DNA of 64,000 bases from Antedon bifida (lineage: Eukaryota; Echinodermata; Crinoidea; Comatulida; Antedonidae), in NCBI GenBank assembly GCA_963402885.1, contig OY727103.1:15774085-15838084 (forward strand). Direction: 5' to 3'. Position numbers and translations under genes: made by a program. This document shows positions 35,875 to 47,100 of this stretch, piece after piece (the first letter of the stretch is position 1; every line of letters begins with the position of its first letter). The notes beneath the pieces were generated by a model. That model was not told the DNA's origin. It ran no database searches and worked only from the letters and a program-made list of their open reading frames with translations.

Positions 35875-37443
35875 ATGTCGTCAACTGGAGGAGTTGGAGC
35901 AGTACTGATGTTTATATTGTTAATGCCATTGGATTGTTCTGCTAACATTTCGTTCGTTGAAATGCCAGAATTTAAAGAAGTAACCGAAGGTGAAACAGTA
36001 TCTTTCTCTTGTGTTCTTCGACTAACATCTCCAGAGTCTGGTTACAAAACGTGGATTACATGGGAGACTGGAGAAGGCAACCTCTTGATTGCCAGTGGCA
36101 GTGATACCTATCTGACAGACACAAGATACGCAGTGAATACATCTAAAGAGTCGTCAGATGCATCAATCACGTTATCTAGTAAGTTGATCATATCTGATGT
36201 CAGTGATCAAGACGAGGGTGGGTTCAGATGTAGTCTGCGTTATTTCTCAGGGAATGCTGGGTCGACTACTAGTTACCAATCGTCTGCTGGTTCGTTAGAA
36301 ATATCTGCAAACACGATTCCAATACCATCCTGTTTGCTTCAACCACCCTTTGTCAACATTGGTGACTCTATTAAATTAACTTGTGTCTCACCAGCTATGG
36401 AACCACCACTTACTCTACAATGGTTAAGTTCGAATAATCCAATTGGTGAACCAATCAAATCAAGTGGTGAGCAAGATGTTGTGCTAACTCATCAATTCAA
36501 TGTCACTCTGGACATGGATGATTCCTCATTCGTATGCCATAGTTCAAGCTCCGTTAACTCTGCAGGTCGGAAGTGTGTCGTTGGGCCTTTAAGTGTGGCA
36601 CCACCTCCAGTACCTATATCTACTATTGTCCAGATACCTCCATTTGGTGGCTCTGACATCCATTTAAGATGTCAGGTCACTGGTTCGCCACCATTCTCGT
36701 ATACATGGCTATTGTCAAGTGTTATCAGGAACCAAGTAGAGGATGTCCATTCTGAAACACTGATTATTAAGAACATTGATTCCAGTGACGTAAGGGGTGT
36801 GGCGATTTGTAAAGTTTCTGATAGGTATGGCCAGGAAGAAACTAGTCTGCTTTACACAATACCAATTGATCACGTCATCCGTCATCCAACGGTGGATAGG
36901 CCTACTCCACTTCTTACAACATTGACAACAATGTCAGTCGAGCAGACGGTCTCCACAGTTACAGTCACGGTAACAGATACTTTCGGACAAACTCTGAACA
37001 GCACCGATGCAGTGTCTACGTACATTCCGCAAGACGGTCCGTCAACAAGCATCAACAGACATCCAAAAAACACTATAATCTTAATTCTCGTTTGTGTTTT
37101 ATTAATTTGTTTACTTTTAACTACACTTTTTACGTACGTTGTAAAATATAAAATGTCTGAAAGCGCGTATACGAAAGACGCGGAGCGACCAAAAATTGTG
37201 CATCAACATAACGTGAAGTATGTCGAGCCTATTTACCACGTTCTTTGTAAGCCTACCAGTGGAAATATATCTACGTTGCCTGCAACGAAACATTATGAGG
37301 AAATATCATCAAATCAGTTTGAACTAAAGGAAAATATAAAAACAAAGAATGCATTATATGCTGATCTAGTGACCATTTCGAAAAGCAATACTTCGAAAGT
37401 TTCTTCAAGTACAAATATCATGTATGCCGAAATCCAGAAATAA
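35875..37443 (+). CDS. Intronless three-Ig-domain receptor with ITIM-like cytoplasmic tail
   Basis: Single open frame of 522 residues. Residues 1 to about 24 are a signal peptide (hydrophobic VLMFILLMPL). Ig1 is V-like, about 30-140, with SFSCV, a Trp pair and DQDEGGFRC in which the usual Tyr before Cys is Phe. Ig2, about 150-240, has KLTCV, LQWL and FVCHS; Ig3, about 245-330, has HLRCQ, YTWLL and AICKV. A Ser/Thr-rich stalk follows, then a membrane helix (about 399-423, IILILVCVLLICLLL). The 99-residue tail has Tyr at 432, 449, 454 (IYHVL), 474 (YEEI), 495 (ALYADL) and 517 (IMYAEI). IMYAEI fits the ITIM rule [SIVLT]xYxx[IVL], which binds SHP-type phosphatases when phosphorylated; YEEI is the classic Src-type SH2 target. 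Not assigned to a named family; an adhesion or immune-type receptor is inferred. A plausible AATAAA lies at 37990-37995. Confidence 0.88.
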   Translation: MSSTGGVGAVLMFILLMPLDCSANISFVEMPEFKEVTEGETVSFSCVLRLTSPESGYKTWITWETGEGNLLIASGSDTYLTDTRYAVNTSKESSDASITLSSKLIISDVSDQDEGGFRCSLRYFSGNAGSTTSYQSSAGSLEISANTIPIPSCLLQPPFVNIGDSIKLTCVSPAMEPPLTLQWLSSNNPIGEPIKSSGEQDVVLTHQFNVTLDMDDSSFVCHSSSSVNSAGRKCVVGPLSVAPPPVPISTIVQIPPFGGSDIHLRCQVTGSPPFSYTWLLSSVIRNQVEDVHSETLIIKNIDSSDVRGVAICKVSDRYGQEETSLLYTIPIDHVIRHPTVDRPTPLLTTLTTMSVEQTVSTVTVTVTDTFGQTLNSTDAVSTYIPQDGPSTSINRHPKNTIILILVCVLLICLLLTTLFTYVVKYKMSESAYTKDAERPKIVHQHNVKYVEPIYHVLCKPTSGNISTLPATKHYEEISSNQFELKENIKTKNALYADLVTISKSNTSKVSSSTNIMYAEIQK

Positions 37444-38853: not shown

Positions 38854-41192
38854 ATGTTTTCCAGACCATCTTTCTTGTTGAATTTTATCATATCAGTTGC
38901 TTTATCAAAAACTGTTAACATATCTGACTACCTGATACACGAACACAAAGGCACTGGTTTTAATCATGTCACTAACCATAAAGACTCTGGCAGTATTTAT
39001 ATCGCAGCTACTAATTTTATCTTTTTAATTAATAATGATTTTGAATTAGTAAAAGAAAATAGTACATGTACCGATATGGATACGGATTGCGAAAACGTGA
39101 ACAAAATCCTAACTATTGATTACGTAAACAATAGGTTGATAACATGCGGAGAAGGCAATGAGGGGAGATGTGAACGACGTTCGTTAGATAATTTAGAGAT
39201 GGATGGTGTGAGTGACGACAACATAGTTGGAAGTTCCTCTACTGTTGGAATTATCTCATACCACTTTGATACAAATAATAACAGATTGAATGTTGCATCT
39301 CATATTTCAGATAAAAAACGTATAGTAACAACTAGAAAAGTGAATTCAGATTATAGTTTTTTGTCTGATGTTACATTTCTTACATATGATAGAAAAGATT
39401 CCATAAAGTATGTTTCAGCATTCAATCATGGTGACTTTACATATTTTGTGTCAAACAGAGAAAACCAGTCACACATCAGTAGGTTTTGCAGTAGTAACAA
39501 TGACAAAGATAAAATCTTAGATACATTTTCAGAAATTTTTGTCTATTGCGTTGGACCAAATAACAACAAATTTGATGTAGTTCATGATATGAAATTGGAA
39601 GTGGTGGGGTCATCGTTGGCCAGTTTGCTTGGCTTGACTGGCTCACAAGAAGTTCTATTTGGTGTGTTTAGTAATTCCACTGATAAAAATACTGATTCTG
39701 TGCTTTGTATGTTCCCATTGGAAGATATTGAGGATGGGTTTTTTAAGGCTGTTGAAGGTTGTTACTCAAGTGGTGATCCAGAAAGAAATAAACTAGACTA
39801 TGTAACAGGGGCTCAGTGCCATAATGAGGTAATGAATTACTACATTGACTAAAGTATTTAAGACAATATTAAAGATGTATTGTTCCTTTGACTAATTCCA
39901 AAAAAATAAAAAAATAAACGATTTTGAAAAAAAGTTGAAGTATCATAATAGTTATTAACTTTCACCCAAAATTAGTCGAAAAAAAAATCATTTAACTGAA
40001 ATACAGACATTTTTTTTTCAAAAAATAACTTTGACTTCCAGTCAAAGTTTTCGATCAAAACATATCTCATAATGCAAGGGGCTTGTTTGGCTACTCTGTA
40101 TGCATAATCATAAAACTTCCTTGCGATCTGTGTGAGAACACCTTCTCAACTAACTGTGCCCGCGATGACTTTCCAGACGAAATGTAATCAAATTAATTTA
40201 CCTGTTAATTACGTAAACTTGTTGTTTTTTGCTCGAATTTTCGACTTAAAGCGAATAACTTTAATATTACTTTGATATGGCCAATTTAAATTTAGAATAT
40301 TCTGACCTTCATTTTTGTGTGTTTCAAGGAACAATACATCTTTAAAGTACAAATTATGATCTGTTATATATAAATTTACAGCCACAGAAAAAATTCTAAA
40401 CCTCCCAGTGATATAATGAAATTTAATAACCGGTAGTTGTTTTGCTGCCTGGTGCCCATAATTTGCGGAACATCGATGTAGAGCATTGCCATCTTTGAGT
40501 TATTTTGAGTTAGATAGTGAATTAATTCATATAATATATATATCCTTAGCACTTTGCCAAATATAAAAAACTTAATTTATTTAGTCAAATAATTTTGTTT
40601 AATTGCAGATGAATGATTTAACAGATTTGATTGAAGGATTCTTCTGTGTTCCAAGTAGTTCTGGTGTCAAGTACTCACAAGGCATTGAAAGTGAGGCTGT
40701 CAAATCTCAGTCCATAATGCATTTCAAAAACACTGAATTAACATCAGTTTCAGTGGCTGTAGAGAACGCTAACACAATAGGCATTCTGGGAACACAAGAT
40801 GGAAATCTGATTAAGGTAAACTATATACACATAGACTGCATGTATAAACACAGCATATTTTGTCTAGTCTATTTCGTGCCTAGCTTACCTGGATAAACCA
40901 AAAATAGCCTTTTCTTCTCGAAGAGCGAGATATAACTTGAAAAGTAGAAGTTTTCATTGTAAGGTAACAACAGGGTGGAGGAAGGTGGAAGACTGGAGTG
41001 GAATTTCCTGTATTTATTAACAACTAATAATTAAACTACACAATACTGCAATTGTTTGTATAGGTACACGTAAACAACAGAAGTACAGCTACAGAGTATG
41101 AGAGAATGACACTTGACGAAGGCTATCCCATCAAACCTGACACTATAATTGATGCCAATGGAACCAGCTTTATCATCCTCACTGAAAATAAG
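38854..41192 (+). CDS. Plexin exons 1-3: signal peptide and sema domain
   Basis: Residues 1-437. The ATG begins MFSRPSFLLNFIISVALS, a clear signal peptide. Exon 1 is large (975 nt), as usual for plexin sema exons. Sema strands: GSIYIAATNFIFLIN, ILTIDYVNNRLITCGEG then GRCERR, YVSAFNHGDFTYFVSNRE, RFCSSN. Exons 2 and 3 add GFFCVPS, GILGTQDGNLIK and EGYPIKPDTI with FIILTENK, the last sema blade. Confidence 0.92.
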
Positions 41193-44100
41193 GTAATCCA
41201 CATAATTTGACAAATTCATGGTCTGCCCAACAGTATTGGGTTTTCTGAACATATTTTACAGAACAGAAAACAATTTTGGACCAAAGTTATAGGTTTTTAT
41301 AGTTTTTTCTTCATATTTCTAGGAGTTGGGGTGGTATAGTCAGTAGGTTTCTATATATAACACACTATTTATTTGTTTTTAAGGCAACTTTATTTGATAT
41401 TCAATATAAATGTAACCGATTTCTACTAAAATCTACTGTATTTTGTATGCGTTTTCATAAAATGATATTTTTTAAGTTTGCATTTTTTGTCCCTTTTAGT
41501 TGTTGAAGATTCGAAGTGAGATTTGTGGCCAGTATATGACTTGTGATGAGTGTGTAGGGATTGAAGAAGGTGGGGCAGATCCATACTGTGGTTGGTGTAC
41601 ATTGGAAAGCAGGTAGAGGCATTTTTCTAACCTAAATCATTTATCAATGGTTATGTAATGTAATAGAATGTTTCACAATTTAAGTTTAAGTTTTTTTGTT
41701 CATCATTATTCATCACTCGTACTACATCAATCAATGGAAACTACATCCATAGTTGACAATTATGTTATTATGCATTATGTACTCTTTAAAACAATACAAA
41801 CACAACCGTAAGGTTATTGTACTGTAGAGATGACAGGTTGTTTTTATTCTGTTCTCAGATGTAGTCGTTCTAGTGAATGTTCCACTGGCTACTGGAAAGC
41901 AAGTGGCTCAAGTGAATGTATTGCAATACAAACTGTTCCAGATTCTCTACCAATTTCTGATTGGAGACATGTAAGTTCTTTACAATATTATTTCTCTTCA
42001 CGTACCTTTTAAATTAAACACTGGAAATTATCTTGTACAACACTCTGTCAATGATGGTTTATTACGGTCTAAAATCTTTTTTAGCATTCCAAAAACCAAA
42101 ATATCGACTGATGGTTGAAATAACATTGAATAAGAACATTTCTGATTATCCTAAAAGATCTGATTTCTCAAGACAATTTTTATTTTGTAGACAATCCATT
42201 TGTCAATAAGCCAACTACCAGTAGACCAGAATTACACATGTCAATTTGACAATAAAGTTGTTAAAACTAACGCCATTGATTCCACGCTTGCGTGTGGCCC
42301 AATACCACAGCAACCTTTGATACCACCAGGACAAGGTAACTTCCTTACAACATTTTGTTTAAATGAATTAGTATTGTGGATGTTTATTTGCTTTTTATTA
42401 CTTTATGATGACATTTTACATTATAAATCAATTCAATATTTTTATTTTGTTCCTTCTTTTTTGTTGTTTATTTTATGTAGTGTACTGGTATCATTTTATT
42501 TATTGTAGGTATAAAATCATTAACACTTGGGTATTTATATTTTTGGAATTGACTATATTATTATGTTATCATGTGATATGGCTTGTTCAGTAGCAACTCA
42601 TAATACAAAGAGCAACCCACCAGTTACTACTACTGGTAGCGATTCAGATTCAGGAATTAATGGAAATACCAATAATACAAATCGACTAAATGAACTCAAA
42701 TTTGATGTGTTTGAGTCCATTACAAATTTTGCAGGAAACTTTGATCTAGATCCTGACCAAAATTTCTACAAAAACTGCACAAACCTTTCTAATTATTTTC
42801 TTTGTGATCAATTTGCATGTAAATTTAAAACAGTAGATACTCAAAAAAGTTTTTCTAGTATCCACTTTAATGCAAGAAGTCTCGTAAAAAATTTGGATGC
42901 TATCATGGAATTTATTGAAACTCTACATTTTCAGTTTGATATCATTGGTATCTCGGAGACATGGTGTAATGAAAATAGTCCACCGTTAAATATACCTAAC
43001 TATACATTGTTATCTAAAAATCGAAACGGTAGAGTAGGTGGTGGGGTTGCTTTGTATGTAAGTAACTTAAGATCATATACTCAACGAAATGACATTTCCT
43101 TGACAAATATTTCATGTGATTCAATTTTTATTGAAATTAATCAAAATCATGGAAAGAATATTATTGTTGGTGTTGCTTATAAGCCACCAGATGTAAACAG
43201 TAACCACTTTGTGGACGATTTTGATAAAATACTCACAACAATAGATAAAGAAAATAAGCTAAACTATATCATGGGTGACTTTAATTTAGACCTTTTACGA
43301 TATACGAGTATAAACTCAACGCAAGACTTTTTAAATATATTATATAGTAATTTCTATTTACCCTTAATAAATAGACCGACTCGAATCACTAGTAATACTG
43401 CTACATTGATTGATAATATTATAGCTAATTCATGATCTACCTGTCACAAGTGGTATATTATACTGTGACATTAGCGATCATCTACCAATTTTTCAAATCA
43501 CTTCATTTATAAATGATTCATTTCAAAATGACGTCCCTATTCAGTCGTATCGCCTAATAAATCCTCTAAATATTGAAAATTTTAAACAAGATCTGGCTAC
43601 AAACGGTTGGGATGATGTAATGTCTTTGTCTAACCCTGAAAATGCTTATGATTTGTTCCAATCCAAATTTACAACAGTATACCAAAACAATTTTCCATTG
43701 CATACTGTTAAAAACAAAAATAAGAGAAAATTAAAACCATGGATGACTAATGGGATTTTACAGTCTATTAAGCATAAAAATAAACTGTATAAAAAGTTTC
43801 TTAAATATCCAACAGGCCCAAATGAGTTAAAGTATAAAACCTTTAGAAATAAATTGAATACTCTTGTAAAAACATCTAAATTAGCTTATTATAACGAACA
43901 ATTTTCCAATACTAAATCGAACATAAAGAAAACATGGGATGTAATAAATAATTTATTAAACAGAAAAGTCAAATGTAAGCAAAATACTAATTTTACTTGT
44001 GATGGTCGATCTTTGGATCAACCGCAAGATATTGCAAATGCATTTAATGACTTTTTTACACAAATTGGTCCCTCACTTGATAGAAAAATTCCCCCTGGAA

Positions 44101-47100
44101 ACATTGATTATAATGATTATTTAAAACAACCAAACAACCATTCAATGTACTTTTTTCCAATGACCGCTGCTGGGTTTGACGGTTTATGTCCTAATGTGGT
44201 TAAAGCGGTAGCAGCCTTAATTAGCAAACCGCTCTGCCATATTTTTAACGCATCATTAGTTAAGGGTATTTTTCCCAGCCAACTAAAAATAGCTAAGAGT
44301 TACACCCGTTTACAAATCTGGAGACAAAGGAGACATTAGTAATTATAGACCAATTTCTATTTTATCATGCTTCTCCAAAATTTTAGAACGTATGCCTTTG
44401 TTAGAACTGTTTCTTTTCTAGATAAGTACGATATTCTTCATAATGGTCAATATGGTTTTCGTAGCAAATTTTCTTCTTCAATGGCTCTAGTGGATCTTAC
44501 AGATAGAATTATAAGTGCATTTGAGAACAAATCACATGCAATAGGTATTTTTTTGGATCTATTCAAAGCATTTGATACGATAAACCATAACATTTTATTA
44601 TATAAGTTAAGTTATTATGGAATTCGTGGTGTTGCTTTACAATGGTTCAAAAGTTACCTTGAAAATCGATCCCAGTGTACAAAATATGAATCTTTGCTGT
44701 CGGAACTGCAAAATATAACATGTGGAGTACCACAAGGATCGCTACTTGGACCACTATTATTTATTTTATATGTTAATGACATTTTTAAGACATCGGATCT
44801 TTTTTCATTTATACTATATGCCGATGATACAAATATATTTTACAGTAATGATGACATCTATGAATTATATCGTACTGCAAACAACCAACTACATTATATT
44901 TGTGAATGGTTTAAGGCTAATAGATTATCATTAAATTCAAAGAAATGTAATTATATTATTTTTAGTAATAAGAAAAAGAAGGCTGATGATGTAGATAATT
45001 TAAAAATTGTACTTAACAATGATGACATTCAAAGAGTAGAACAAACAAAATTTCTCGGTGTCTTAATTGATGAGCAGTTGACTTGGAAATACCATATCAT
45101 TTGGTGACGCCACCTTTTTGGAAATAAATGTTGATTTTGATTGATTGATTGATTGATATTTACATTTAGTTGATTTTGGTGCTTATTTAACTTTGGTTAT
45201 TGTTTTACTTCGTCGGTTATTCAATCCTCCCATACATTTTCTTTTCATTTATCATAGTATTGTAGGGGACCTCGTGACACTTTTGCTTCTAATGAGGTGT
45301 TCCCAGTTATTCTTAACTGAATAAATATTGAATGAATGAATATAAACATTTTTTTTTCCAGTTAAAACAAGTGTATTTATATCTGTTCACATACAGTCTG
45401 GATTGTCTATTGTTAGTACAGAATTTCCATTCTATAACTGCAGTGCTATAACGTCGTAAGTAACTATTTTTCTAAAGCTCTGGGTTTAATTTAGAAGGTG
45501 TGGAGATTACAGAAAAAAAATGTTTCTTTGTTAAATCTTCTTCCTACTACAATTCCTAAAGGAAACATACATACTTCCTGAGAGAGTATTGCCGGAAAAT
45601 TCTCAAACCGGTATTGTTGAGAAGACATTACCATAATATGGAGTTTATTACATACTAGCTGTTATCTATCATGTTGTTTTTGTTGCATTTAGTATGGTTT
45701 ATCCAACTACTATATTATGGTGATAGACCACAATGAAAATGATTTAATTTTAATTACTTTTTAACAACTTTTTGTGTCCTTGATATATCCATTTATTGTC
45801 TTAAAGTTTGTTTGTTGCCAATTCTTTTATCTAATTGCGTTGTATGTAGGCCTATATATGGATATTTTAAAAATATTAAACTGTAAAAACAGTAAATTTA
45901 TTTATAGATATTTTGTAGTTAAATACAGTATAGTAATTGTAATAAGAGTTGTAAAAATGGTTAGATTTTAACTGAATGTTAACAACACAATAATTATCTT
46001 TTTCTTATTATACCATAATGAATAGATATGTGAAGTACTTTGATAGTTGGTAAAAATTCATTCAGGTTTTACAATAGGTATAAAAAGGATTTCTTTTTGT
46101 AATAACCATAAAATTATAAGAGAACTTACAGAATGAAACATGTCAGGTTTCGTAACGTTCTGTAAGTTCGCTTATAATTTTATGGTTTTTACAACAAGAA
46201 TTCCTTGTTATACTTTGATGGTGTTTACAATGCCACAGAACACTATTAATATTACAATAAAACTTTAATCATCCATGGAAGCCCATTCTGAACGTGCCTA
46301 TTGTTGTTTTTCACTGGGTAGATACAAATAAACAAATAAACTGAGTGCGTTTAGATAATATTTTCAAAATGAAAAGGAATAACAAATATTAACAATAATG
46401 CAATATTTCCTACACAGATTGATATTATAAATACTTATATTGGTAACTTCATTATTTATACAGTTATAAATAATGAATCATCATCGAACACAATAGGAGT
46501 TTAATTCATATTAAGTGCGTTTATCTGTTAACAATGATTGGATATATAGAATTGAAGTGAGTGTGTAAGAGCTATTGAATTTGTTAAGTCAGAGACCACA
46601 GGAATTCTTATTTACTAGTTAGGTTGTTAGGCCTTTTATCAAATGTATTGAAAGTAAATGAAAACCAACTCAAGTGGAATCGATATTAGAGATCCTGACA
46701 AACTAATTTTACGGTAATTAAACAATATACCAATCTCCCCACTAAAATTGAACTGACGTATGTACATATTACCTCATTTTTTATTTGTGATATTAGATGC
46801 TCAGAGTGTACAAATAGCCGTTTTGATTGTTCATGGTGTCCATTGGAACACACATGTGCTTATAGTAGTGGGTCCTGTTCTATGATTGGAGATGTTTCTG
46901 TCAATTCACAACAGGTATGTATCAGCGTATGTATGAATAAACAAATTACATACTAAAGATACATGGTGGATCTCAATAGAATCAGAAGCTAAAAACATGG
47001 CAAATGTAATCTGATTATACTGTGGTTTATTATTTACAATTATCTTTTTATCTTATATTTCTGTTTTATATTTATAAAGTTTTAACTAAAAACTACACAT

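Follow-up and report, generated by a model that had tools for sequence, protein, structure and literature searches.

Introduction

Among vertebrates, SIRP-alpha, PECAM-1, the Siglecs and LILRB are type I receptors of the immunoglobulin (Ig) type carrying at least two C-terminal YxxL/V/I motifs with a spacing in the low to middle twenties, PD-1 is a receptor with one Ig domain, and the SIRP, Siglec and LILRB genes generally place each Ig domain on an exon of its own. The two tail motifs of PD-1 (Y223 and Y248) lie 25 apart and act via SHP-2, according to the available part of the report (PMC7078208). For the ITIM itself, the accessible sections of a second source give the consensus S/I/V/LxYxxI/V/L, place Ala at pY+1 in the ITIMs of SIRP-alpha and Siglec-6/9, and state that this residue recurs in the ITIMs of several inhibitory receptors, most of which are reported to recruit SHP1 (PMC8631942). 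As to the phosphatase, excerpts of a third report describe SHP2 as being activated best when two phosphotyrosines, joined by a linker of about 40 angstrom, are arranged head to tail (PMC10231330).

Outside the vertebrates, the fester co-receptors (FcoR) of Botryllus schlosseri are, in the sections available of the paper describing them, type I IgSF receptors of 520–610 aa constituting a multigene family, which combine a V-type Ig domain, a sushi domain and two C2-type Ig domains, are encoded by an alternatively spliced locus, and contain an ITIM, a hemITAM or a core YxxI/L/V motif in their long tail. The same sections state that almost all proteins of the ITAM/ITIM pathway have homologues expressed in Botryllus ampullae, and cite the candidate Alr allorecognition genes of Hydractinia as carrying ITAM/ITIM motifs (PMC12065747). 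In the accessible text of a 2025 review of the invertebrate IgSF, echinoderms are named once, in a phylum list, and the text on ITIMs deals with LILRB (PMC11999971). Among the open-licence papers listed, none reports a receptor of this kind in an echinoderm, which constitutes weak evidence of absence. IgTM is reportedly a skeletogenic gene of sea urchins. Here we compare with these systems a three-Ig receptor gene, the focal gene, and the gene family surrounding it.

Results

The focal gene lies in a 64-kb stretch of genomic DNA that was analysed as a whole and is referred to as the window. Its features, in window positions, are the following.

35875..37443, + strand: receptor gene for a type I membrane protein of 522 aa; one ORF with its own ATG and stop, Pfam matches, and paralogues of like layout
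35875..35943, + strand: putative signal peptide, residues 1–23; hydrophobic N-terminus of the translation, judged by eye
35974..36264, + strand: Ig domain 1, V-type, residues ~34–130; Pfam V-set 34–124 and ig 36–130
36343..36588, + strand: Ig domain 2, C2-type, residues ~157–238; Pfam C2-set_2 165–225 and Ig_3, outer borders estimated
36628..36849, + strand: Ig domain 3, I-type, residues ~252–325; Pfam Ig_3 257–315 and I-set 259–325, outer border estimated
37069..37143, + strand: transmembrane helix, residues ~399–423; hydropathy and AF2 helix 398–429
37228..37245, + strand: PIYHVL (Y454), a YxxL core motif that is not a strict ITIM
37288..37305, + strand: KHYEEI (Y474), a YEEI motif 21 residues before Y495
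37351..37368, + strand: ALYADL (Y495), first of the pair; Ala at −2 departs from the ITIM rule, and YADL occurs in both paralogues that have the pair
37417..37434, + strand: IMYAEI (Y517), second of the pair; fits S/I/V/LxYxxI/V/L, with place and spacing as in the paralogues L041 (YAEI) and L069 (YADI)

The window translation contains no internal stop in the 522-codon frame at 35875–37443(+), and the probability of 522 open codons at the composition of this ORF (GC 0.41, stop probability 0.061 per codon) is ~4e-15. Pfam Ig_3 matches the protein in three stretches (E 7e-17), and no sushi domain was matched by Pfam at E 0.1. The single-sequence AF2 model is poor (mean pLDDT 35), its only confident part being the helix 398–429, in which pLDDT reaches 89 for a block of 10 residues. 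An earlier note on this DNA had described a single-pass receptor with three Ig domains, and the three Pfam Ig domains, the one hydrophobic helix and the intact ORF agree with that description.

Elsewhere in the window, a 332-aa ORF that matches a Sema domain (38854–39852(+), E 4e-6) is located 1.4 kb downstream of the receptor and probably represents the first coding exon of a gene of the plexin or semaphorin kind. Fragments of a LINE-type retroelement, with an endonuclease-type ORF and a reverse transcriptase ORF, occupy 42527–45107(+), and an Rfam scan of the 64 kb yielded no match.

The cytoplasmic tail of the focal receptor comprises 99 residues (424–522, encoded by 37144–37440). Its tyrosines are, outward from the membrane, Y425, Y432, Y449, Y454 (YHVL), Y474 (YEEI), Y495 (YADL) and Y517 (YAEI); Tyr495 stands in the context NALYADL and Tyr517, 22 residues further on, in NIMYAEI, and the three Yx[DE][IL] motifs (Y474, Y495, Y517) succeed one another at spacings of 21 and 22 residues. 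The earlier note had singled out ALYADL and IMYAEI at a spacing of 22, which is correct according to the ORF translation, and had taken the second to obey the ITIM rule and the first to depart from it by its Ala at −2, in agreement with the published consensus; its list, however, passed over the further YxxL/I motifs PIYHVL and KHYEEI, the latter of which we take to resemble a Src-family SH2 site. ITAMs follow the rule YxxL/I-x(6-12)-YxxL/I, and an ITAM reading of the tail was rejected because 16–18 residues, not 6–12, lie between the successive YxxL/I motifs at tyrosines 454, 474, 495 and 517.

When the focal tail was shuffled, at least one strict ITIM appeared in 8,157 of 20,000 shuffles, and the single strict ITIM seen is hence at chance level. 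Three Yx[DE][ILV] motifs arose in 4 of 20,000 shuffles, a pair of such motifs 18–28 apart in 180 of 100,000, and two YA[DE][ILV] motifs in 4 of 100,000 (1 of 100,000 in a repeat run). What sets this tail apart is the pairing of its motifs and their acidic +2 residue, not the strict ITIM count. The acidic and paired patterns were chosen post hoc, with the tail sequence in view, and the paralogues therefore constitute the more independent test.

The genome searched for paralogues was that of the window itself (315.6 Mb, 27 contigs). The family has at least 83 matching places in it, that is, at least 72 from the search with the focal protein (a lower bound, with 83 of 275 candidates scored) and 11 further ones among 20 from a search with L041. 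From 81 ORFs fetched, 73 passed a filter at E 1e-7 and yielded 69 tails, four being dropped (three too short, one devoid of a helix); two of the eight ORFs outside the filter (C7a_184716 and C7a_184078) matched in another search. Together with three tail ends (L069, L070 and L071), 72 tails were examined. Among 20 loci fetched, no ORF reaching 250 aa was obtained from L037, and the tail of L039 is incomplete, its frame running past the fetched end.

The module YADL-x18-YA[DE]I is found at the tail end in 3 of these 72 tails, namely those of the focal receptor, L041 and L069 (2 of the 69, and L069 alone of the three tail ends). These tails end in ALYADL...IMYAEIQK, LQYADL...TQYAEIRR and LMYADL...VIYADITKH, respectively, with the tyrosines 22 apart in each, and for none of the three did any of 100,000 shuffles produce such a pair 22 apart. 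L041 (C9:13468716-13470698, on a contig other than that of the focal gene) shares 25% identity with the focal protein across 347 residues, and L069, the gene next to it (C9:13476013-13477890, of which the last 701 bases alone were read), is 25% identical to L041 over residues 24–653. The pair is absent from L070 (IYEGxx repeats) and from L071 (SIYDTI only). A genome search with the whole focal tail returned the tail itself (E 4e-60) and otherwise one match with a stop at E 1.3, with nothing other at E <1; L041 and L069 turned up via whole-protein searches, not via the whole-tail search. The C-terminal 30 residues had no match among solved chains at E 10.

The comparison of the three tails points to the paired module being selectively kept, by descent or by repeated gain, because the tails differ greatly in length and sequence and scarcely align beyond the pair. 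In a tree of 30 ectodomains, the focal protein is on a long branch whose placement is unsure and whose meeting with L052 was flagged as a long-branch effect; this weak tree speaks neither for nor against a common descent of the pair with L041, which is neither shown nor excluded. One might argue that the motifs merely represent a chance resemblance in a tyrosine-rich tail, considering that the strict ITIM count is at chance and the patterns were post hoc, but the identical pair and spacing in two diverged paralogues render this explanation extremely improbable.

A second explanation takes the motifs for endocytic or sorting signals of the YxxPhi kind, recognised by the mu subunit of AP-2 and unrelated to phosphotyrosine signalling. 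YHVL, YEEI, YADL and YAEI all satisfy, as we understand it, the YxxPhi rule. AP-2 is not known to ask for an acidic residue at +2 or for an exact 22-residue pairing, and both are present in three receptors; SHP2 activation, by comparison, does depend on spacing in the available part of the report (PMC10231330). We thus consider sorting alone improbable.

The 69 tails fall into 15 tail types, one with 55 tails and 14 with a single tail each. Away from the membrane, a strict ITIM occurs in 5 of the 55 large-type tails and in 7 of the 14 single tails, and Yx[DE][ILV] in 21 of the 55 and 8 of the 14. If the membrane end is included, strict-ITIM matches are present in 21 of the 55 large-type tails, but 15 of these are the membrane-adjacent VYYFCI/VYYYCL. 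With one tail taken per type (15 tails), 12 Yx[DE][ILV] motifs were seen and 3.0 expected (1 of 2,000 shuffles), and with the membrane end cut off none of 5,000 shuffles reached the count across the 15 types; for the strict ITIM, 10 were seen and 4.2 expected (57 of 5,000 shuffles). The last YxxPhi motif of the large type is AMYLEI in 14 tails, HSYTYI in 13 and QGYTYI in 13, and is lacking in 5; rarer forms, found in one tail each, are VMYLEI, SIYLEI, SVYAEI, SFYAEL, VHYSEI and more.

Other tail designs were observed as well. The tails of L054 (C12:25218200-25220200) and L070 (C16:15456500-15457000) contain repeated units with IYEGPI/IYEGAI-like tyrosine motifs, those of L054 being near-identical, ~44 residues long, and accompanied by HLYSKV. 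The tails of L036 and L045, two further lone relatives, look activating: L036 has DEDGYMETL, which we take to be close to a hemITAM, and L045 has YQSL-x12-YELL.

Yx[DE][ILV] is frequent in the large type, SH2 exons were matched 55 times in the genome, and the focal tail has YEEI (Y474) along with two further YxxL/I motifs, all of which would suit a multivalent scaffold on which each motif binds one other SH2 protein (a Src-family kinase, SHIP, PI3K p85 or adaptors). A single tandem-SH2 partner is favoured over such a scaffold because the spacing of the two motifs recurs in the paralogues, and we regard the scaffold as very improbable.

A candidate partner is encoded at C7:23229063-23234240(-), where exon matches follow one another in the order SH2, SH2, phosphatase (6.4 kb read there). 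The exon for the N-terminal SH2 domain matches PTPN11 (SHP-2) best, at E 2e-41 versus 9e-30 for PTPN6 (SHP-1), as does that for the C-terminal one (7.5e-39 versus 8e-26). On these exon matches the gene is the SHP-2 orthologue, and the host has a tandem-SH2 phosphatase. A Syk/ZAP-70-like SH2 domain, the part examined, was identified at C11:445683-445916 (E 2e-30), and the genome thus probably also encodes a Syk-like kinase for the phosphatase to oppose. At least 159 tyrosine phosphatase exon matches were registered genome-wide (150 of 299 candidates scored), many of them clustered on C10 and C11, which suggests expanded PTP genes.

The host itself can be placed by means of its mitochondrial contig C27 (15,844 bases), which in the part read contains cox1, cox2, nad1 and nad2. 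A conserved segment of nad1 reads WASNSKY with AAA = Asn and TGA = Trp, and nad1 and nad2 are opposite to cox1; as read from this segment, the code is of echinoderm type. Flatworms have this code in common with echinoderms but generally carry all mitochondrial genes on one strand. On the same contig (L031), ~70 bases separate the start of nad1 from cox1, which has the opposite orientation, and cox1 is succeeded after 13 bases by cox2, with no nad4L between.

Many family members are organized in tandem arrays, to which the focal gene, a singleton, does not belong. Five arrays were compared, four at C7:18.386-18.551 Mb (12, 7, 13 and 9 genes) and a fifth, of 6 genes, near 24.7 Mb. Their ectodomains exhibit 51–80% protein identity, with fourfold sites 50–87% identical, and their tails 92–98% protein identity, with fourfold sites 83–93% identical; in the four arrays at 18.386-18.551 Mb, the flanks are 47–58% (300 bases upstream) and 42–51% (downstream) identical. 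The silent-site contrast is small (0.87 versus 0.92) in the array at 18.536-18.551 Mb, and in the other arrays gene conversion appears to have homogenised the tails, because selection acting on protein sequence would by itself leave silent sites free to differ. The region C7:18385874-18551386 (L009–L026) as a whole presents single-ORF three-Ig receptors whose transmembrane segments and tails are near-identical, including silent sites, whose ectodomains are divergent, and whose flanks hardly align.

The best solved-structure matches of the focal ectodomain are titin, CEA, Dscam and contactin, which are mostly adhesion-type Ig proteins; MAG, a Siglec, ranks below these, and neither SIRP nor LILR is among the best 60 of 67 matches. 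This ranking would be in accordance with an Ig receptor of the adhesion or growth type, not an immune inhibitor, for which SHP-2 would be a positive effector. SHP-2 acts positively below growth-factor receptors and certain adhesion receptors; the orthologue is present, and the paired motif would serve equally. Yet the family to which the gene belongs is large, with tandem arrays in which ectodomains diverge and tails are almost identical, and is in this unlike ordinary single-copy adhesion molecules, even though the focal gene is itself a singleton, and we consider the adhesion or growth role rather unlikely.

Discussion

Taken together, our analysis suggests that the focal gene probably encodes an inhibitory-type cell-surface receptor recruiting SHP-2 via a paired-ITIM module that two diverged paralogues share. 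Binding of a ligand to the Ig domains would then lead to phosphorylation of Y495 and Y517 by a Src-family kinase, for which pY474-EEI may be a docking site. The phosphotyrosines pY495 and pY517, 22 apart, would engage the N- and C-terminal SH2 domains of the SHP-2 orthologue in head-to-tail order, and such bivalent engagement would open the phosphatase, which might damp a nearby kinase-driven (e.g., Syk-like) activating signal. Against the inhibitory reading it is to be held that IMYAEI alone is a strict ITIM, that one such motif is at chance, and that the pair is present in 3 of 72 tails only.

The proposal of the earlier note that this is an inhibitory-type receptor is thus upheld in part: the gene is intact, the pair is kept at 22 in two diverged paralogues and an SHP-2 orthologue is encoded, but only one motif obeys the strict ITIM rule. 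Its placement of the receptor outside the described vertebrate families is consistent with an ectodomain not nearest to SIRP, Siglec or LILRB and with a coding region that is one ORF as a whole, and the invertebrate origin it assumed for the receptor is corroborated by the echinoderm-type mitochondrial code of C27.

It is tempting to go further and speculate, quite tentatively and at less than even confidence, that the focal gene represents the paired-ITIM inhibitory arm of an undescribed KIR-like echinoderm recognition system, that is, of dozens of single-ORF Ig receptors (at least 83 places) in which arrays diversify the ectodomains, gene conversion keeps transmembrane segments and tails near-identical, and signalling is wired to SHP-2 and Syk-like kinases. 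Receptor arrays presenting variable ectodomains on homogenised tails constitute a plausible recognition repertoire in an animal devoid of antibodies. If the module works, paired-ITIM/SHP-2 inhibition at a vertebrate-like spacing operates in an echinoderm, the inhibitory logic would be spread more widely among deuterostomes, and a defined pair of peptide and phosphatase would be at hand for testing.

The principle is not new, because ITIM-bearing Ig receptors outside the vertebrates have already been described in Botryllus (FcoR) and Hydractinia (Alr); what is new is the phylum, the build as one ORF, a paired module resembling that of vertebrates, and the family around the gene. As far as the available account of FcoR goes, both systems consist of invertebrate type I Ig receptors of a multigene family with tyrosine motifs in the tail, but the focal gene encodes three Ig domains with no sushi match in one coding ORF, whereas FcoR has a sushi domain and is alternatively spliced. 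ITIM motifs are likewise common to the focal receptor and Alr, which is cnidarian and is likened here by its description in that account only. PD-1 shares, in what is accessible of its report, the two tail tyrosines at a similar spacing; its second motif, however, is an ITSM (TxYxxV/I), and the second focal motif has I instead of T at −2. With SIRP-alpha, PECAM-1, the Siglecs and LILRB, finally, the focal receptor has in common the type I Ig build and the C-terminal paired motifs at similar spacing, and with SIRP-alpha and Siglec-6/9 also the Ala at pY+1, yet its ectodomain singles out none of them, its gene is a single ORF, and its genome is of echinoderm type.
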